A DNA stretch of 64,000 nt from Spartobacteria bacterium (GCA_003167365.1 PMTM01000006.1:1-64000), one strand, 5' to 3'. Positions 9,721 to 35,992 are shown, counted from the stretch's first letter. Notes: a model not told the origin generated them from the letters alone. Numbers and translations are program-made.

Positions 9721-10908
9721 ATGCTCGCGGAATTCGAAAAGCAGCTTTCGCAAACGCTCGAAGAAATAAAATCGCAAGGCCTTTATAAGACTGAGCGCAT
9801 CATTACCAGTCCGCAGGATGCCAAGATCGAGCTCGCTGGCGGCGAGCGCGTGCTCAATATGTGCGCGAACAATTATCTCGGCTTGGCCGATCATCCGGCA
9901 CTGCTCGCCGCGGCGAGGGAAGCGCTCGATACCCATGGTTTCGGCATGGCGAGCGTGCGTTTCATTTGCGGCACGCAGGACATTCACAAAGAACTCGAAG
10001 CCGCGCTGACCAAATTCATCGGGACCGAAGACACGATTCTTTATCCCTCTTGCTTCGACGCAAACGGCGGTTTGTTCGAAACACTGCTCAGTGAAAACGA
10101 CGCCGTAATCAGCGACGAATTGAATCACGCGAGCATTATCGACGGCATTCGGCTCTGCAAGGCGCAGCGCTTTCGTTACAAACACAACGACATGGCCGAT
10201 CTTGAAGCGAAATTGCGCGAGGCGAGCGGCGAGCGGTTCCGATTGATCGCAACGGATGGTTGTTTTTCAATGGATGGAACGATCGCGGATTTACGCGAGA
10301 TTTGCGAACTCGCCGAAAAATACAATGCGCTCACCATGATCGACGACGCGCATGCCGCTGGATTTCTCGGCCAGACCGGTCGCGGCACGCACGAGCACTG
10401 CGGCGTAATGGGCAAGATCGACATCATCACCGGCACGCTCGGCAAAGCGCTCGGTGGCGCGAACGGCGGTTACACAAGTGGCCGCAAGGTGATTGTCGAC
10501 CTTCTGCGGCAACGCTCGCGTCCCTATTTGTTTTCCAACACAATCGCGCCACCGGTGGTAGCCGCATCGTTGAAAGCGATCGAATTGTTGAGCGCCTCAA
10601 CCGAACTGCGCGACAAGCTCGAAGAAAACACGAAGTATTTTCGCGCCGCACTCACCGAACGCGGCCTAACGATCAAGCCCGGCACGCATCCGATTGTTCC
10701 GATCATGATTGGCGATGCCGCAAAGTCGCAGAAGTTCGCGGCGCGCATGCTCGAGAAAGGCGTTTACGTCATCGGCTTTTTCTATCCTGTCGTCCCGCAC
10801 GGCACCGCCCGCGTTCGCACGCAGGTTTCCGCCGCGCATTCGCGGAAAGATTTGGAGTTCGCCGTTAACGCCTTTGCCGAAACGAACGAAGAATTGAAAA
10901 ATCTGTAG
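9721..10908 (+). CDS. kbl: glycine C-acetyltransferase (2-amino-3-ketobutyrate CoA ligase)
   Basis: PLP enzyme of the alpha-oxoamine synthase family that cleaves 2-amino-3-ketobutyrate with CoA to glycine and acetyl-CoA. Its 395 residues match Kbl. Signposts are [34 protein letters not shown], the PLP-ring Asp in [12 protein letters not shown], and the Schiff-base lysine in [15 protein letters not shown]. The final third has [15 protein letters not shown]. With tdh upstream it forms the two-step threonine-to-glycine route, although an antisense gene separates them. Confidence 0.96.
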
Positions 10909-10961
10909 AGGCAGCGGCCAGAAACTAGAGATTGCGTGCGACACGCCACCACTACATCGCA

Positions 10962-12701
10962 TCAATATCCCGCCGCCTGGCCGTCTTTGCGCGATTCGCT
11001 CGCGCCAACGTAGACACGCTGGCCGTCGTGCATTTCGACTTTGATGGCTTGATAACCGCCGTAGCCACCGACGTCGAAGCGAACATCGTGACCTTTCTTG
11101 CGCAGTTCGCGCACAGTCTCGTACGGAATGCCGCTCTCGACTTCAACGTAGCCACCGGATTCGGTCATTTTTTCGCCGGTCGGCTCGTTGTCGCCTTCGT
11201 GTTGCCAGCGCGAAGCGTCGCCGGCTTCCTGCACGTTCAACCCGAAATCAATCTGGTTGGTGATTACTTGCACGTGACCTTGCGGTTGCATGCCTCCGCC
11301 CATCACGCCGAACGCTTCCCATGGTTTGCCATCTTTCATGACAAAGCCGGGAATGATGGTGTGAAACGGTCGTTTGCCGGGCGCGTAAACATTCGCGTGG
11401 CCGGGCTCCATTGAGAAAAGTTCGCCGCGATCCTGGAACATGAAGCCCAGTCCGGGCACGACGATGCCGCTACCCATGCCGCGATAATTGCTTTGGATCA
11501 GGCTGACCATGTTGCCTTCGTCATCGGCAGTGCACAGGTAAATCGTGTCGCCCTGATTCAGAGCCGGATTGCCAGCTTCGACCTTTTTCGCCGCGCGATT
11601 TGGATCGATCAACTTGCGCCGCTCCGCCGCGTAATTCTTCGAAAGCAAACCAGCCAGCGGGATTTTCGCGAATGCAGGATCGGCATAAAATTTCGCGCGA
11701 TCAGCCCAAACGATCTTCTTCGCTTCGACCATCGCGTGCAGCGTCTCGGGTGAGTTGCACCCCATCGCATGCAAATCGAATCCTTCGAGAATGTTCAACA
11801 TCTGAAGCGTAGCGATGCCCTGGCCGTTCGGCGGCAGCTCGAAAACATCGTAGCCGCGATAGTTGGTCGAGACGGGATCGACCCACGTCGATGTGTGCTT
11901 TTCAAAGTCGGCCTTGCGCAAAAAGCCGCCATTCGCCTGCATGAAATTGTCGATCTTGTCAGCGACCTCGCCTTTGTAAAAACCGTCGCGCCCTTTCTCG
12001 CCGATCAATCGCAACGTTTTCGCCAGCGCCGGATTTTTGAAAATGTCGCCTTTGGCCGGCGTGTTGCCCTTGCCATCGAGCGTATAAGTTTCAAGGAAGG
12101 CACCGGGTAAACCTTTATAAATGCGCGGACCGAACGCCCAGTAGTACGCGATCAGTTCGGTGACGGGGAAACCTTCCTCGGCGTAACGAATCGCCGGTGC
12201 GAGATCGTCTGAGAGCTTGAGCTTGCCGAATTTTTTGTGCAGCTCGGCCCAGGCATCGACCGCTCCCGGAACGCTGATCGGCAGCATGCCGGTTGGCGGA
12301 ATTGTTTCGCGCTTCAGTTTCGCGAGCTCCGCCTTCATTTGTTCATAACTCAAAGCGAGAGGCGAACGTCCGCTTCCATTCAACCCGTAAAGCTTGTTCT
12401 CTTTTGCGATGTAAACGATCGCAAATAAATCACCGCCGACTCCATTCGAAACCGGTTCCATTAAGCCGAGCGTCGCGTTCGCGGCGATGGCGGCATCAAC
12501 CGCACTGCCGCCGTGTTTCAAGATGTCGAGTCCGGCTTGCGTCGCCGCCGGGACGCTCGTGCAAACCATCCCATGCCGCGCCACAACTTCAGACCGGGTC
12601 GCAAAATTCTTTCCCGTAATGCGATCGATCTGGGCGCGCGAAGTCTCCCCAAAGGAACAAGCAATTAGAAATGAAACGATGAGGCAAGGCAGCTTATGCA
12701 T
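10962..12701 (-). CDS. ggt: gamma-glutamyltransferase (glutathione hydrolase)
   Basis: Periplasmic N-terminal-nucleophile hydrolase that removes gamma-glutamyl groups from glutathione and similar compounds. It is 579 residues with a Sec signal (MHKLPCLIVSFLIACSFG, cut near SRA-Q). The small subunit should begin at the Thr in NQGDTIYLCTADDEGN near residue 385, the self-cleavage and catalytic site. Other family blocks are GGSAVDAAIAANATLG, NGVGGDLFAI, GSGIVVPGLGFMFQDRG and the substrate loop GVMGGGMQPQGHVQ. It looks like a complete enzyme. It is convergent with kbl (53 bases apart) and its upstream gap holds a palindromic repeat. Confidence 0.95.
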   Translation of the reverse strand: MHKLPCLIVSFLIACSFGETSRAQIDRITGKNFATRSEVVARHGMVCTSVPAATQAGLDILKHGGSAVDAAIAANATLGLMEPVSNGVGGDLFAIVYIAKENKLYGLNGSGRSPLALSYEQMKAELAKLKRETIPPTGMLPISVPGAVDAWAELHKKFGKLKLSDDLAPAIRYAEEGFPVTELIAYYWAFGPRIYKGLPGAFLETYTLDGKGNTPAKGDIFKNPALAKTLRLIGEKGRDGFYKGEVADKIDNFMQANGGFLRKADFEKHTSTWVDPVSTNYRGYDVFELPPNGQGIATLQMLNILEGFDLHAMGCNSPETLHAMVEAKKIVWADRAKFYADPAFAKIPLAGLLSKNYAAERRKLIDPNRAAKKVEAGNPALNQGDTIYLCTADDEGNMVSLIQSNYRGMGSGIVVPGLGFMFQDRGELFSMEPGHANVYAPGKRPFHTIIPGFVMKDGKPWEAFGVMGGGMQPQGHVQVITNQIDFGLNVQEAGDASRWQHEGDNEPTGEKMTESGGYVEVESGIPYETVRELRKKGHDVRFDVGGYGGYQAIKVEMHDGQRVYVGASESRKDGQAAGY

Positions 12702-13003: not shown

Positions 13004-14680
13004 ATGGCGGACACAGTTGAAAAACTCACGACAGGCGAGCCGCTGACCATCGATCAGCTCATCGAGTATTTGCCCGCGCTCAAAGAGGTCGCGCGCGCCC
13101 AATTGGAGAACTGGGCGAAAGGCGCCGCCGTTCTGCATCGGTTCCGCAAAGGCGAAATTGTTTGCGAGGAGGGCGAATTCGGATCCACCGCTTATTACAT
13201 CGTCTCGGGCACGGTCGATATTTTCATCAACAATCCGCTTGCGCATCTGCGCACCCGGCCACAGAGCGGTTTTTTCGGACGCCGTTTCGCGCGCATGAAA
13301 AGTTTCCTGACCGACGACACCGAAGATCGTCGCGCGGAAGCGGGCCAGCGGCGATTCATCGGCATCGACGCAAGTGTCGACCTTCCGATGCACCGGCCGC
13401 TGGCGCAGCTTGGGCCCGGCGATCTTTTCGGCGAAATGACTTGTCGCACTTATCAACCGCGCTCGGCCACGGTGCAGGCGCGCGAACCGTGCGTGATGGT
13501 CGAAATGCTGCGCGTCATTCTGGACATGCTCGTCGGCAACAGACAGGTGTCGGAAGCGTCAAAGGCCACATCGAAGGTGAAGATGCCCACGTTCAAAGGC
13601 ACTTCATTCAAAGCGGAGCTCGAAAACAAATATCGCGAACGCTCGCTCAACAATCATCTGCGCAGCGTGCCGCTCTTCGCCACGTTGAGCGAAGAGTTCA
13701 TTCAGCGCCTGAAAGAGAACGTCGAGCTCGTTTCCTACAACCAGGGCCAGGTCATTTGCAAGGAAGGCGAAGATGCGGACGCATTTTATCTCATTCGCTC
13801 AGGCATGGTGCGTGTGGCGCAAGCGATGCCGGGCGGCGAAATGGTGCGCACTTATTTGAGTCGCGGCGATTACTTCGGCGAGATCGGTTTGCTCCGCGCG
13901 ATCAAACGCACGGCCACCTGTTCCGCGCTCGACGCCGTCGATGTTGTGAAAATTCCGGCGGACGATTTCAATCTCATGCTCGAAACGTTTCCCGATGTGC
14001 GGGCACAACTCGAGCCCGTGGCCACGGCACGTATGGCCGTGGATCGGCAGAAAGTGATTCCGGCCGGCTTGCAGTTGGATGATTTCCTCAATCAAGGATT
14101 GTTCGAGGCGCAGAATCTTCTTCTCATCGATCTCGATAACTGCACGCGCTGCGATGCCTGCGTGCGCGCGTGCGCCACCGCACACGACGGCGTGTCGCGT
14201 TTGCTGCGCGACGGTTTGCGCTACGACCATTTCCTTGTCGCCACTGCGTGCCGATCTTGCCGAGATCCCCTTTGCATGACGCAATGCCCAGTCGGTTCGA
14301 TCCGCCGCAAAGAAAATCTCGAGATCATTATCGAAGATTGGTGCATCGGCTGCGGCAAATGCGCGGAGTTATGTCCTTACGGAAACATCAACATGCATCC
14401 GCTCGAGGTAATCAAGGAAGTGAAGACCGAGGTCAAATCAACGCAGGAAGGCGTTCCGCCCAAGATCAAGATCGAGAAGAAAAAGACGACCGCCTATAAA
14501 GCGAACACCTGCGATCTTTGCACGCAGCTCTCCACGCCGAGCTGCGTCTACGCCTGTCCGCACGACGCCGCTAAACGAGTCGATCCGCAGCGTTTCTTCG
14601 GCGATGCGCTCGTCGCGCAGAATGAAATGATGCAGAAGCAATGGTCGCCGCGGCATTACCAGACGCACCACACTCACTGA
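13004..14680 (+). CDS. cyclic-nucleotide-binding / 4x[4Fe-4S] ferredoxin fusion protein
   Basis: A 558-residue soluble protein without signal peptide. Two cNMP-binding (CRP-like) domains come first. The first (about 40-175, GDLFGEMTC) is interrupted by a basic loop of about 45 residues. The second (about 220-335, SRGDYFGEIGLLRAIKRTAT) has a nearly canonical phosphate-binding cassette with the GE and RTAT elements. No DNA-binding helix-turn-helix follows. Residues 375-550 instead form a DmsB/HybA-type electron-transfer module with four cysteine sets: CTRCDACVRAC, CRSCRDPLCMTQC, CIGCGKCAELC and CDLCTQLSTPSCVYAC. It is followed within 10 bases by the membrane gene and then the decahaem gene. Inference: an Fe-S electron carrier gated by, or sensing, a nucleotide. 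Confidence 0.9.
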   Translation: MADTVEKLTTGEPLTIDQLIEYLPALKEVARAQLENWAKGAAVLHRFRKGEIVCEEGEFGSTAYYIVSGTVDIFINNPLAHLRTRPQSGFFGRRFARMKSFLTDDTEDRRAEAGQRRFIGIDASVDLPMHRPLAQLGPGDLFGEMTCRTYQPRSATVQAREPCVMVEMLRVILDMLVGNRQVSEASKATSKVKMPTFKGTSFKAELENKYRERSLNNHLRSVPLFATLSEEFIQRLKENVELVSYNQGQVICKEGEDADAFYLIRSGMVRVAQAMPGGEMVRTYLSRGDYFGEIGLLRAIKRTATCSALDAVDVVKIPADDFNLMLETFPDVRAQLEPVATARMAVDRQKVIPAGLQLDDFLNQGLFEAQNLLLIDLDNCTRCDACVRACATAHDGVSRLLRDGLRYDHFLVATACRSCRDPLCMTQCPVGSIRRKENLEIIIEDWCIGCGKCAELCPYGNINMHPLEVIKEVKTEVKSTQEGVPPKIKIEKKKTTAYKANTCDLCTQLSTPSCVYACPHDAAKRVDPQRFFGDALVAQNEMMQKQWSPRHYQTHHTH

Positions 14681-14689
14681 GTTCTTGCC

Positions 14690-16069
14690 ATGCGCATTCT
14701 TAATCGCGCTCACATGCCCTGGTTTATTTTCGTTTGCGCCGCCACGGCCGGCGCGATCGTTCTTTATCTTGCAAACTTTGATCCCGAGAAATTGCCGGCG
14801 GGAATTCATCTGCCGGCATATTTAATTCAGAAACCGTCCGATCACCGCAGTGTCGGCGGGACGCCGCTCGGTTTGATCTTCGGTGCGGTCTCGTTCGCGA
14901 TTTTCATTTTCGCAGCGCTCCTCAGTTTACGAAAAAAAATCCCGCTTTGGCGCATCGGCACGGTGCAACGCTGGTTGCGCGCGCACATCTGGTTGACGCT
15001 GCTCACGATTCCACTCGTCATTTTACACAGCGGATTTCGGCTCGGCGGCCCGATGACAACGTTGCTGATGCTGCTCTACGCCATCGTCATGATCAGCGGA
15101 ATTTACGGACTGATTTTGCAGCACCAAATGCCGGCACTGATGAAAGAGCGATTGCCGGCCGAAACCGTGTTCGAACAAATTCCGCACATTTGCGCTCAAC
15201 TCGCCGCCGCCGCCGTAAAGATGCGCGACTCCTTCAAGCCCGCGCCGCCGGCCAAAACCGACGCCGGTGCTCCCGCACCGAGCCCCGCAAAATCGGTGAC
15301 GGCCGGCTCCGCGCCGATGGCTTCAACCGCCGCTGACTTGAGCACACCAACGGCGCGCGCGAAAACCGCCGTAGGATCGACAATCACCGCTGCGCCGATT
15401 ACCCAACCAGTGCCCGCTGCGAATGCGGCGACAACTCAAGCGAAAGCCCCCGAAACAATTTCCCAACCGCCGACGCCAGAAGCCGCGGCACCGGCAGAAT
15501 CTCGCGTGACTCCGCCTCCTCCGCTCAACCCGGGCGAGACGATGGGCACGCCGACGGCGCGAGTACCTGAAGGCACGCAGGTCCCGGCCGGCACGGAAAG
15601 CGCCCCGTTGAAATCGCCGGCTGACAAAACGGAATCCGCGGTGGTCGCCGCACCGCCGACGCCAGTTCCACAGTCAACGGCTCCCGTCGCGAAACCAGTC
15701 GCGCCGGTCGCACCAAAACCGGTTGTGTCCGCGGCAGCGTCCGCTGATTCAGATTCGGAAGTCGCGCTCGTCGAATTCTTAGATCGACAAGTTATTCCTT
15801 ACCTGTCGGCCAAGCGCGGCGAGAAATTCCGGCTCGGCAATCCGCGATTTTCCGAAGACACTTTTCGTTTTGTCCGGCTTCGCATCGCGGAAATCTACCA
15901 TCCACGCGTGGACGAAATCCAGGCGTGGTGTGACGAGCGCCGTCTGCTCGACCTGCAAACCAAGATGCAACATTGGCTGCACGGCTGGCTCTTCGTGCAC
16001 GTGCCGTTTTCGTTCTTGCTGTTGATGCTCACGGCGTGGCACGCGTTCGTGACGCTCTTCTATTATTGA
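14690..16069 (+). CDS. membrane cytochrome b-like protein with Pro/Ala-rich loop
   Basis: A 459-residue polytopic protein. Hydrophobic helices are at about 8-25, 62-85, 102-120 and 122-142, with a last one at 430-458. Histidines are placed as possible haem b ligands: RAHIWLTLLTIPLVILHSGF in the third helix and HGWLFVHVP plus LTAWHAF at the C-terminus. Between residues about 175 and 360 lies a low-complexity Pro/Ala/Thr-rich linker, probably an extended loop. A compact soluble block follows (RQVIPYLSAKRGEKFRLG onward). It lies 9 bases after the CNB/Fe-S gene and 6 before the decahaem gene, so the three are surely co-transcribed. I assign the b-type haem by histidine pattern only; the family is not one I recognise. 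Confidence 0.8.
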   Translation: MRILNRAHMPWFIFVCAATAGAIVLYLANFDPEKLPAGIHLPAYLIQKPSDHRSVGGTPLGLIFGAVSFAIFIFAALLSLRKKIPLWRIGTVQRWLRAHIWLTLLTIPLVILHSGFRLGGPMTTLLMLLYAIVMISGIYGLILQHQMPALMKERLPAETVFEQIPHICAQLAAAAVKMRDSFKPAPPAKTDAGAPAPSPAKSVTAGSAPMASTAADLSTPTARAKTAVGSTITAAPITQPVPAANAATTQAKAPETISQPPTPEAAAPAESRVTPPPPLNPGETMGTPTARVPEGTQVPAGTESAPLKSPADKTESAVVAAPPTPVPQSTAPVAKPVAPVAPKPVVSAAASADSDSEVALVEFLDRQVIPYLSAKRGEKFRLGNPRFSEDTFRFVRLRIAEIYHPRVDEIQAWCDERRLLDLQTKMQHWLHGWLFVHVPFSFLLLMLTAWHAFVTLFYY

Positions 16070-16075
16070 GCGGCC

Positions 16076-17542
16076 ATGGCAACACCGAGCCGAACGCAAA
16101 AGCAAATCGCCGAGCGCTACAAAGGCAACCTCGGCTATTATAAAAAAGTTCATCCGTGGCGGCGCGCACGCCGTCTGGTCAGCGTGGTTTCAATCTTCGG
16201 CGGATTAATCGCAATTTGGATTTTTCAAACGCGCAGTCGCGAAACTTTTTTTAATTCAGGGAAGATCTCCGCCGACCATGCGTCGTTCGGCGACAAGTGC
16301 GCGAGTTGTCACGACAAGGCACTCATGACCGGCGGCCCACTCACACCGCAAAAATTTCGCGCGATCGTGAAAGAACGTTTTCAAAACGGCATCGCCTTCG
16401 GACTGATCGACCAAAAATGCCAGACCTGTCACACGCATCACACCTTCCACGAGCCGAACGTCGTGCAAAATCGCTCCTGTTCGGCCTGTCATCAGGAACA
16501 TGAAGGGCCGGGCCCGATGAAATTGGTCGCGAGCTCGAACTGCGCGTCCTGCCACAACAATCGCGAAACCATGGAAGCTTCCGCGCAGAAGGGGATGCAA
16601 TTCAATTGGGCGGCGTTCCACCGGCATCCGCAACCGGCGCAACGCGTTGTCTTCGAAGTGCCCCGGCCGCCGCGCGGACACACCCAAGTTTTTTCGTCGT
16701 TTTGGAATGGACACCCGGAGTTTCAGATCAATTCCGCAAAGCCGCGCGATCCCGATGTTCTCCGCTTCAACCATCAGCGGCATTTTGCGAACGACATCCC
16801 GCTCGTAAACGGCCGGAAGCTCGATTGCAATTATTGCCACAAACCCGACGGAGAAGGCCGGTTCATGCAGCGAATCAGTTTCGCCGCGAATTGTCAGGCG
16901 TGTCATTCGTTGCAGTTCGATCCGAAAAATCCGGAGTTAATGTTGCCGCACGGCAACGCTACCGCCGTGCGCGCGTTCTTGCGCTCGTTGCCAACGCAGT
17001 ATGCGGACCTGGCCGTAAAGAAGGGAATTACCCGGTCGAACGAAATCCAGATTTTCGTCGCAAAGCAGATTGCGCAGTTGCGCGAGCGCGTCCGCTCCGG
17101 CGAAGACTTCGAGCGTCAAGTTTTCTTCACCACCGATCCCTACAAACCGCAGCGTCAGGATAATTCGCCGACACGTAGTTCGTTTTACGGCTGCGCCTTT
17201 TGCCACGAAGTGAAACCGGTGGCGAACACCGCGCCAATAATCACGAAACCGATTCTGGTCGATCGATGGATGGTGCGAGCAAATTTCGATCACGCCAAAC
17301 ATTCGAGCGTGAAATGCGACGATTGCCATCACGCCACGCAAAGTCATGACACTTCCGACGTGCTAATGCCGACGAAAGCGAACTGCGTCACTTGCCACAG
17401 TCCGCAAGGCAAGGTCGTCGCCGAATGCATTACCTGTCACACCTTTCACGCGCCGCCGCAGACGGCGATCGTCGATCTTAGCCAGACGCCGCCGATTTCC
17501 GTAAAACAAATGATGTTTGGTAGGGTCAGCGCGCTGCGCTGA
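16076..17542 (+). CDS. membrane-anchored decahaem cytochrome c
   Basis: A 488-residue protein with one N-terminal membrane anchor (about 37-53, VSVVSIFGGLIAIWIF) and a periplasmic body carrying ten CxxCH haem sites: CASCH, CQTCH, CSACH, CASCH, CNYCH, CQACH, CAFCH, CDDCH, CVTCH and CITCH (about residues 75-455). Many extra His (HTHHTFH, HHATQSH) could be distal ligands, as in cytochrome c3/NrfH-like chains. It would pass electrons from the membrane partner to periplasmic acceptors. The last seven residues (GRVSALR) and the stop are encoded by a palindromic repeat, so the original end has been overwritten. It overlaps the convergent sialidase gene by 17 bases. Confidence 0.9.
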   Translation: MATPSRTQKQIAERYKGNLGYYKKVHPWRRARRLVSVVSIFGGLIAIWIFQTRSRETFFNSGKISADHASFGDKCASCHDKALMTGGPLTPQKFRAIVKERFQNGIAFGLIDQKCQTCHTHHTFHEPNVVQNRSCSACHQEHEGPGPMKLVASSNCASCHNNRETMEASAQKGMQFNWAAFHRHPQPAQRVVFEVPRPPRGHTQVFSSFWNGHPEFQINSAKPRDPDVLRFNHQRHFANDIPLVNGRKLDCNYCHKPDGEGRFMQRISFAANCQACHSLQFDPKNPELMLPHGNATAVRAFLRSLPTQYADLAVKKGITRSNEIQIFVAKQIAQLRERVRSGEDFERQVFFTTDPYKPQRQDNSPTRSSFYGCAFCHEVKPVANTAPIITKPILVDRWMVRANFDHAKHSSVKCDDCHHATQSHDTSDVLMPTKANCVTCHSPQGKVVAECITCHTFHAPPQTAIVDLSQTPPISVKQMMFGRVSALR

Positions 17543-17573
17543 CCGTCGGACGCCGCAGCGCGGCGTCCCTACC
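17519..17573. repeat. double-hairpin repeat, GGTAGGG type, at a convergent gene junction
   Basis: Outer edges ggtaggg and ccctacc are inverted. Inside are two hairpins, gtcagcgcgctgcgctgac (17525-17543) and ggacgccgcagcgcggcgtcc. It supplies the stop codons of both the decahaem gene (plus) and the sialidase gene (minus). A sister copy is at 35939-35992 and a possible degenerate one lies inside carB at 32612-32649. Confidence 0.85.
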
Positions 17574-18641
17574 TTGCACTGCCGCGATTTTTTCATTGAG
17601 CCACGCCTGCGAGAAGTGGACGTGTTTGATCGCGCTGCGCCGCTCGTGCGAATACGTCAGATGATAGCTGCCGTCAGCGGCCCTAATAATTGCCGGATAA
17701 GAAAACGATCCACCGCTAGGCGAGTATTCAAAGTCCCAAATCTTTTTAAAATCGCGTCCGTTTTCCGAGTAAGCCAGACTGAGCGGATTTCGGCCCTTCT
17801 TGCTGTCGTTGTACACCAGCAGGGTCTGCCCATCATTAGTTTGTACCGCATCGATGGCCGCATTCGGATTCGGCAGCTGTAACCTTTCCGCGTTCGACCA
17901 TTTTAGTTGAGCCGGGTCGCAATGCGAAAACATGAGGCTTTCCCACGTCGGGTCGCGCAGATACGCGACCAGCTCTTTTTCACTGCGCTGGACCAGAGTC
18001 GGCTGCGTGTTTTCCGGACCGTCGATTCTCTCGAACGTCTTGCTTCGAATTTCGCCGCCGGAAACCGTCAATGTGCAGGTGTAACTGTACTTATGCCCAA
18101 AGTTTTTGTAGAGCGGGACGGTGAATTTGCCGGGACCCAATCGCAACGGCTTGTTCCGGGGAAGATTGCAAAATGTTCCCACGAGGGTCTTCGCCTGCGA
18201 CCAGGTCTGCCCGTTGTCCTTTGAAGTTTTGTAATCGACGCGTGCCGAACTCCAGCCGCCCATCGGCATGGCCGCGTAGAAAAGCCAAACAACGTTTTCG
18301 TCATCGACGAAAAGCGCGCAGTTTCCAAATGTCTTGGTGCGCATCCACCGGCCTTCCGCCCGTTCGTTATGGGCGGCGACAATCGCCGGTGCACTCCAGG
18401 TTTTCACGCTCTGATCGTAGCGGTTGGAAAAAATCTTAATGTCCGGCGCACACTCTTCGCTGCCCGCGTACCAACAACAAAGCAGGTGATGGTCGGACAA
18501 TTCCACGATCGACGACCCGTGGTTGACCGGAAACCGGCCCGGCGCGATGACCAGATTCTCTTCGTAATCTGTTTGCGCGCCGGCGCGGATCGGCTGCGCC
18601 AACAAAAACGGAACGACGATTAATGAAAGTCTGGCGAGCAT
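17526..18641 (-). CDS. sialidase-family (BNR-type beta-propeller) exported protein
   Basis: About 371 residues with a signal peptide (MLARLSLIVVPFLLAQPIRAGAQ). The body matches the exo-alpha-sialidase-like propeller family: NHGSSIVELSDHHLLCCWYAGSEE at the start, SKDNGQTWSQAK (an Asp-box-like SxDxGxTW), LVYNDSKKGRNPLSLAYSENG, and FSYPAIIRAADGSYHLTYSH near the end. Homologues are found beside glycan-degrading genes, and the true substrate may not be sialic acid. I chose the ATG at 18641 for its signal peptide; an ATG at 18683 adds 14 residues. The C-terminal GRDAALRRPTVSAAR is encoded by the palindromic repeat at 17519-17573. Confidence 0.85.
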   Translation of the reverse strand: MLARLSLIVVPFLLAQPIRAGAQTDYEENLVIAPGRFPVNHGSSIVELSDHHLLCCWYAGSEECAPDIKIFSNRYDQSVKTWSAPAIVAAHNERAEGRWMRTKTFGNCALFVDDENVVWLFYAAMPMGGWSSARVDYKTSKDNGQTWSQAKTLVGTFCNLPRNKPLRLGPGKFTVPLYKNFGHKYSYTCTLTVSGGEIRSKTFERIDGPENTQPTLVQRSEKELVAYLRDPTWESLMFSHCDPAQLKWSNAERLQLPNPNAAIDAVQTNDGQTLLVYNDSKKGRNPLSLAYSENGRDFKKIWDFEYSPSGGSFSYPAIIRAADGSYHLTYSHERRSAIKHVHFSQAWLNEKIAAVQGRDAALRRPTVSAAR

Positions 18642-18666
18642 ACCGTGTGAATTGATCGCGCGTTCC

Positions 18667-18710
18667 ATCAAGATCGACAACATACAGTTAGTGGAATTGT
18701 CGATCTTGAT
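18667..18710. promoter_or_regulatory. perfect 14-bp inverted repeat in a divergent promoter region
   Basis: Arms atcaagatcgacaa (18667-18680) and ttgtcgatcttgat (18697-18710) around a 16-base spacer, between the divergent sialidase and agmatine deiminase genes. Each arm contains the 11-mer TTGTCGATCTT that recurs across the window. It could be an operator for a dimeric regulator or a paired uptake-type sequence. Confidence 0.55.
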
Positions 18711-35938: not shown

Positions 35939-35992
35939 GGTAGGGACGCCGCGCTGCGGCGTCCGCGGACATCGCAGCGCGATGTCCCTACC
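35939..35992. repeat. double-hairpin repeat, GGTAGGG type
   Basis: ggtagggacgccgcgctgcg at the left edge, cgcgatgtccctacc at the right, with hairpins gacgccgcgctgcggcgtc and gacatcgcagcgcgatgtc. Begins two bases after the aguB stop. Closest relative of the element at 17519-17573. Confidence 0.85.

Follow-up and report, generated by a model that had tools for sequence, protein, structure and literature searches.

A putative cyclic-nucleotide-controlled electron conduit encoded by a three-gene cluster in a Spartobacteria genome

Can an electron carrier itself be the sensor of a second messenger? This question is raised by three genes, here called A, B and C (Table 1), on a 64,000-nucleotide stretch of DNA from a Spartobacteria bacterium (GCA_003167365.1, PMTM01000006.1:1-64000; hereafter the window). 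The genome that contains it comprises 3.13 Mb in 24 contigs and is 100% complete, and its closest named relatives are Spartobacteria/Chthoniobacteraceae metagenome-assembled genomes of the Verrucomicrobiota. An initial annotation, made from the sequence alone, had described gene A as two CRP-like cyclic-nucleotide folds fused to a four-cluster iron-sulfur domain with no DNA-binding domain, gene B as a membrane protein with helix histidines, and gene C as a ten-CxxCH cytochrome, at 9- and 6-base spacing. Our analysis agrees with this description: the three open reading frames are present, with gaps of 9 bases between A and B and 6 bases between B and C. Judging from the sequences, the three products probably form one inner-membrane conduit that is controlled by cyclic nucleoside monophosphates (cNMPs) and carries electrons outward from the cytoplasm.

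Relatives of gene A were collected in a single scan of 85,000 species genomes, which yielded more than 500; locus counts below refer to the best 80. Residue conservation was counted over 67 homologues of gene A, 56 of gene B and 19 of gene C.

Table 1. Features of the cluster and its flanks (window coordinates)
Feature	Coordinates	Strand	Description	Basis
Gene A	13004..14680	+	558 residues; two cyclic-nucleotide-binding (CNB) domains and a four-[4Fe-4S] DmsB/HycB-type domain, cytoplasmic, without helix-turn-helix (HTH)	Pfam, NCBIfam, model, 80 named loci
CNB-A phosphate-binding cassette	13427..13471	+	FGEMTCRTYQPRSAT; residues 142-156, Glu144 and Arg153	
CNB-B domain	13619..14056	+	Residues 206-351; cassette FGEIGLLRAIKRTAT at 291-305, Glu293 and Arg302	
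Four-cluster ferredoxin domain	14117..14593	+	Residues 372-530; Fer4 families in the C-terminal third	Pfam
Gene B	14690..16069	+	459 residues; candidate dihaem cytochrome b with five transmembrane (TM) helices; H99/H113 (TM3), H437/H451 (TM5), extra H431	
Linker of gene B	15236..15748	+	Residues 183-353, cytoplasmic loop; Pro/Ala-rich, mostly disordered, low confidence at about 201-340	Model
Gene C	16076..17542	+	488 residues; decahaem cytochrome c, one N-terminal TM anchor (about 34-52), remainder presumably periplasmic	
Gamma-glutamyltranspeptidase-like gene	10962-12701	-	One flank of the trio	Reading of translation
Sialidase-like gene	17526-18683	-	Other flank of the trio	Reading of translation

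The products of the three genes

The gene A protein matched PF00027 in three stretches (Pfam, total E 5e-37). The first CNB domain is interrupted by an insertion at approximately residues 80-128, and the protein contains two domains, CNB-A and CNB-B, each with an intact phosphate-binding cassette. In the CNB-A cassette (FGEMTC....PRSAT), the Phe, Glu, Met, Cys, Pro, Arg, Ser, Ala and Thr residues are identical in 67/67 homologues (F142, E144, P152, R153, S154, A155 and T156 among them), and the Glu and Arg are also kept in the 12 most divergent rows. In the CNB-B cassette (FGEIGLL....RTAT), Gly and E293 are present in 67/67, R302 in 64/67 and the Thr after the Arg in 49/67. Thr at this position is a feature of cGMP-dependent kinases; its presence in CNB-B hints at cGMP as the ligand but, judging from PKG and HCN, is not decisive. 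The closest solved fold to CNB-B in the gene A model (predicted local distance difference test, pLDDT, 78.7; predicted template modelling score 0.78) was the cGMP-bound CNB-B of PKG II (Z 21.9, root-mean-square deviation 2.0, 145 aligned residues, 27% identity). Between the model and the tandem CNB structures of PKA-R and PKG, 227-251 residues align, and the domain orientation differs.

These results dispose of two other views of the protein. Degenerate CNB domains, which the initial annotation had named as a finding that would overturn its proposal, are rejected by the retained pockets. A transcription factor of the CRP/FNR type is rejected by the Pfam search, which found no HTH family in gene A; the iron-sulfur domain follows CNB-B instead. 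That the carrier senses cAMP, c-di-GMP or another nucleotide stands in part: both cassettes belong to the cAMP/cGMP type, which makes c-di-GMP less likely. Two further CNB-bearing genes were observed. One is a separate open frame of 225 residues in another genome (L046, G310:C18:77318-77827), with 67% identity to gene A residues 1-172 (CNB-A alone) and approximately 200 kb from a full trio. The other, in the window genome (L199:5089-8232, G000:C9), encodes a bacteriocin-type ABC exporter of 1047 residues (C39 peptidase, ABC_membrane, ABC_tran) with two cNMP-binding domains in front, and is a further non-transcriptional use of tandem CNB domains there.

The iron-sulfur domain of gene A contains 16 Cys in four sets (C380/383/386/390, C416/419/424/428, C447/450/453/457 and C503/506/514/518), which are kept in 64-67 of the 67 homologues. 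Their spacings are, in order, C-x2-C-x2-C-x3-C, C-x2-C-x4-C-x3-C, C-x2-C-x2-C-x3-C and C-x2-C-x7-C-x3-C, the arrangement of DmsB/HycB proteins. The best solved match was HycB3 of the hydrogen-dependent CO2 reductase (E 5e-15).

Gene B matched no Pfam or NCBIfam family. Its model has five TM helices, within residues 6-30, 59-80, 92-114, 121-154 and 401-458, with a helix pLDDT of about 90 or above, and a helical cytoplasmic region formed by residues 161-182 and 354-398, which the disordered linker connects in the window's lineage. This linker is short or absent in most homologues, some of which have only 265-350 residues. H99/H113 and H437/H451 are present in 55-56 of the 56 sequences and H431 in 54, and the protein shows the pattern of dihaem cytochromes b in the wide sense (bc-like, FRD-like), a pair of TM helices that each carry two His spaced 13-14 residues apart. 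The N-terminus and large loop are likely to be cytoplasmic, because the conserved RKK-P-WR-G motif between TM2 and TM3 follows the positive-inside rule; H99 and H437 would then lie on the cytoplasmic side of the membrane, and H113 and H451 on the periplasmic side. Weak family matches among the 56 members were to DUF4405 (16), Ni_hydr_CYTB (10, best 3.8e-6) and Ferric_reduct, PF01794 (8, best 4.5e-4). STEAP1 (Z 6.7) and NOX5 (Z 5.9) were two of only seven fold candidates and are not significant alone. Comparison by hhalign with ferric reductases, through a profile of four rows only, and with Ni_hydr_CYTB proteins gave no match; the gene B profile found only chance coiled-coil matches among PDB sequences; and Foldseek returned nothing under E 1 for the full model, a search that the disordered linker probably hampers. 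We conclude that the gene B product is a candidate dihaem cytochrome b of unassigned family.

Gene C encodes exactly ten CxxCH motifs, each conserved in 19/19 homologues, and matches Cytochrome_C7 in Pfam, with weak matches to the TmcA and QrcA models of NCBIfam. About ten more invariant His are candidate distal ligands, which fits bis-His coordination of the predicted haems. Other cytochromes are encoded elsewhere in the window genome: contig C3 carries a candidate porin-cytochrome conduit, a decahaem pair of 775 and 1300 residues that is homologous to outer-membrane pairs next to the module in relatives (53% and 46% identity to the acidobacterial pair), and contig C1 a relative of cytochrome c554. 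A second multihaem region on contig C1 (L196:3801-17390) encodes a 9-haem protein with an 8-TM neighbour, and 6- and 7-haem proteins with multi-TM neighbours; it possibly includes genes for cytochrome c maturation.

Conservation, electron input and electron output

The best 80 gene A relatives came from Verrucomicrobiota, Acidobacteriota, Planctomycetota, Rokubacteria and Wallbacteria; single records titled Actinobacteria and Rhodanobacteraceae may be misbinned. On the same strand and in order, B stands beside A in 66/80 loci, and B and C do so in 63/80. The 17 exceptions comprise six near a contig end (L111, L121, L127, L147, L158, L170), four that missed only the gap rule through long open reading frame starts or overlaps (L126, L139, L141, L148), four with the order B-C-NuoEF-A (L166, L173, L174, L176) and three that are real exceptions or fragmentary (L128, L144, L171). 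The joint conservation whose absence the initial annotation had named as grounds for refutation was thus found, in at least five phyla, and a local or accidental cluster is rejected. The distance matrices of the three genes are also correlated (A-B 0.83, A-C 0.77, B-C 0.91), at values that include shared species history. A gene A relative occurs in 20/83 genomes of the family (13/30 of the good-quality ones), and gene B in 47/197 genomes of the order. Among Acidobacteriota, gene A was found in at least 7/197 sampled genomes at E<=1e-80, of which four reach 60% identity or more; this is a lower bound, as five candidates were scored per genome.

The neighbours of the trio suggest where its electrons come from. 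Directly upstream of A, 53/80 loci carry a NuoEF fusion (Complex1_51K, 2Fe-2S thioredoxin fold, NADH_4Fe-4S and SLBB). At these loci gene A typically encodes 710-850 residues, with a NuoG/HoxU N-terminus (Fer2_4, NADH-G_4Fe-4S_3 and more Fe-S motifs) ahead of the CNB domains. In a third branch, a FAD/NAD(P)H/2Fe-2S reductase of the NqrF type replaces NuoEF at the same place, suggesting that different NAD(P)H dehydrogenases have been plugged into one trio. One locus (L020:8642-10654 and 10834-12507) has FHA domains in the CNB/Fe-S protein as well as in the adjoining NAD(P)H reductase, a pairing that hints at phosphothreonine-dependent assembly or control.

The other neighbours are cytochromes and an associated porin-like protein. 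A c554-type multihaem cytochrome is encoded divergently upstream in 52/80 loci. Often downstream are an LVIVD/multihaem outer-membrane cytochrome of 1200-1300 residues, similar to ExtM (32/80), and its porin-like partner of 650-800 residues (23/80). The cytoplasm-to-periplasm conduit that had been proposed from the window alone is supported, and is strengthened in the relatives by NuoEF and the NuoG fusion at the input and by the porin-like/multihaem cytochrome pair at the output.

In the window itself, neither NuoE, NuoF nor a NuoG N-terminus lies beside the trio. The gene A tree places the window among 18 loci that lack NuoEF and group together (Shimodaira-Hasegawa-like approximate likelihood ratio test 92; Verrucomicrobiota, Wallbacteria, one Planctomycetota and one Acidobacteriota). 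Since this group is nested within NuoEF-bearing loci (the starred fork of 23), the NADH module was probably lost in the window clade and the trio continued alone. The NqrF branch lies far outside on a very long branch, and the rooting is uncertain. Within the NuoEF-less group, the outer-membrane pair adjoins the trio in L142 and L154, and the cytochrome in L155, indicating that the output end stayed.

A gated outward conduit and its alternatives

Electrons would pass from the four [4Fe-4S] clusters of A to two stacked b haems of B, ligated by H99/H437 and then H113/H451, and on to the ten c haems of C, from which soluble (c554) and outer-membrane multihaem cytochromes would carry them to an outside acceptor. 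In the full form NuoEF and the NuoG N-terminus would bring in electrons from NADH; in the window clade their source may be a different low-potential donor in the cytoplasm, such as ferredoxin. The tandem CNB domains would turn the conduit on or off by binding cAMP or cGMP that class III cyclases produce. In the fused forms they are predicted to have the NuoG-derived clusters on one side and the exit clusters on the other, where a ligand-driven rotation, like that of CNB-A and CNB-B in PKA-R, could alter the inter-cluster distance. Loading of haems and clusters, complex formation, ligand binding, gating, direction, donor and acceptor are all predicted features of this scheme. We tentatively advance, as possible though somewhat doubtful, the strongest form of it: a respiratory complex switched directly and post-translationally by cAMP or cGMP, that is, an oxidoreductase that takes electrons from NADH (or ferredoxin) to an extracellular acceptor, bears a PKA-R/PKG-like tandem CNB regulator in its Fe-S subunit, occurs in at least five phyla and represents a new control of extracellular electron transfer (EET).

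A switch operated by a ligand where electrons enter from the cytoplasm is plausible, since their passage to the periplasmic side short-circuits the membrane potential, as it does in NADPH oxidases, to which the conduit may be analogous in principle. Such flow wastes energy except where the cell has to use an acceptor. Like the proposed conduit, NADPH oxidases and STEAP proteins oxidize cytosolic NAD(P)H, hold a pair of b haems on two helices whose His lie about 14 residues apart, deliver the electron outside and are controlled through a ligand domain; in NOX5 this is a Ca2+-binding domain. The conduit differs in its Fe-S input, where these enzymes have a flavin beside the membrane domain, in its decahaem output in place of O2, and in the lack of a detectable profile match.

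Class III cyclases may supply the messenger. The window genome is rich in cNMP signalling, with 16 class III cyclase domains (at places including L178-L183), at least one of them fused to tetratricopeptide repeats. In L078 and L136 the module has CHASE2-cyclases as direct neighbours; in L077 only 12 bases separate a cyclase gene from gene C, and in the window genome another lies 15 bases from the outer-membrane cytochrome gene (L195). An operon-linked cyclase was considered as proof of gating and rejected, as cyclases are about as dense across the named loci as in the genomic background.

Several observations weigh against a gated outward conduit. The surroundings of the module show no excess of cyclases (7 in 1.35 Mb of loci versus 16 in 3.13 Mb of the window genome). 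No dedicated NADH dehydrogenase for the trio was found in the window genome, where the only PF01512 (Nuo51) gene lies in the complex I operon; nor was an NqrF-type donor found there, although this empty result is weak. Finally, members of the NqrF-type branch have a degenerate CNB-B cassette (e.g. FGFQELLEG), which leaves only CNB-A universal.

The loss of the CNB-B cassette in one branch also speaks for the alternative that survives best, in which the conduit is the same and the CNB domains are structural or oligomerization modules, or sensors of a non-cyclic ligand. CNB folds without known ligand function exist, and the encapsulin 2B model NF041163 (NCBIfam) matches CNB-B at 1.8e-15. The Glu and Arg of CNB-A are nevertheless invariant even in the most divergent relatives, a constancy not expected of a purely structural domain, and we consider cNMP-independent domains unlikely.

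Somewhat more unlikely is a quinone-linked complex, in which B oxidizes or reduces the quinone pool, C is a periplasmic partner, as in CbcL, ImcH, CymA or Qrc, and A is a side branch or regulator. Ni_hydr_CYTB, which a minority of gene B relatives weakly match, is the family of the b domain of CbcL. The inner-membrane EET gates surveyed in the literature, CymA, CbcL/MtoC/MtrH and ImcH only, are quinol oxidases or quinone reductases (PMC6295460). Yet hhalign found no match of gene B to Ni_hydr_CYTB proteins, A is the most constant partner and is fed by NuoEF or NqrF-type dehydrogenases, and a cytosolic NADH module could reach quinone without a dihaem b and a decahaem c. An inward conduit, in which C would receive electrons from a donor in the periplasm or outside the cell (Fe(II), a cathode) and A would pass them to NAD+ or ferredoxin in the cytoplasm, is improbable: all parts are reversible in principle and outer-membrane conduits serve both directions, but this transfer would run redox-uphill from typical multihaem potentials and against the membrane potential, and the gene A relatives come, judging from record titles, mostly from soils and peat.

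The proposed cNMP-controlled outward conduit resembles several known systems in its parts. Gene A shares the tandem CNB domains with intact cassettes of PKA-R and PKG, but its output is an electron carrier rather than a kinase, channel or DNA-binding domain. As in the complex I diaphorase, HoxEFU and NADH-dependent hydrogenases, the input of the relatives is a NuoEF fusion with a NuoG/HoxU-like N-terminus; the output, however, is a CNB-bearing ferredoxin with dihaem-b and decahaem-c proteins, not a quinone site or hydrogenase, and the window trio lacks the input. The Hmc, Tmc, Qrc and Dsr-type complexes of sulfate reducers also combine a four-cluster Fe-S protein, a membrane subunit and a multihaem cytochrome c, but the trio has a different b subunit and no NrfD-type subunit, and CNB domains are absent from those complexes. 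CymA, ImcH and CbcL/MtoC (PMC6295460) likewise feed periplasmic multihaem cytochromes and outer-membrane conduits from the inner membrane, CbcL pairing b with c haems; they are quinone-linked, without Fe-S or NADH input or nucleotide domains, whereas gene B has no Pfam family of its own. Identity with CbcL/MtoC, which joins PF01292 and multihaem c in one polypeptide, was rejected: the genes are separate here and gene B has no PF01292 match (weak in 10/56 relatives). Alternative complex III was rejected as no ActA-ActF set lies beside the trio, an Act-like set being located elsewhere in the genome (L198), and NrfHA and NrfD-type complexes because such genes are not beside it either.

In keeping with the initial failure to match the trio to a named complex, no counterpart and no description of a CNB-bearing electron conduit was found in the open-licence literature, nor any paper there joining cyclic nucleotide-binding with multiheme cytochrome. 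To our knowledge, second-messenger control of bacterial extracellular respiration acts at the level of transcription only. If the electron carrier itself reads cAMP or cGMP, cells could gate respiration in a matter of seconds; this would explain how they keep safe a conduit that dissipates the membrane potential. The cluster offers a concrete and testable electron exit route for Acidobacteriota, Verrucomicrobiota and Planctomycetota, soil phyla whose anaerobic physiology is poorly known; iron reduction in Acidobacteriota has been inferred from decahaem genes, without an inner-membrane route (PMC3669403). Two named strains, Granulicella aggregans M8UP14 and Tautonia sociabilis GM2012, carry the cluster and make it experimentally accessible.

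A repeated element beside the cluster

A palindrome-rich element of 26 bases (GGACGCCGCAGCGCGGCGTCCCTACC) occurs in the window as two exact copies, at 17548-17573 (+) and 35939-35964 (-), with 0 expected by chance. The copy past gene C belongs to a larger palindrome that overlaps the final codons of the decahaem cytochrome. The element looks like a dispersed repeat of the repetitive extragenic palindromic (REP) kind.

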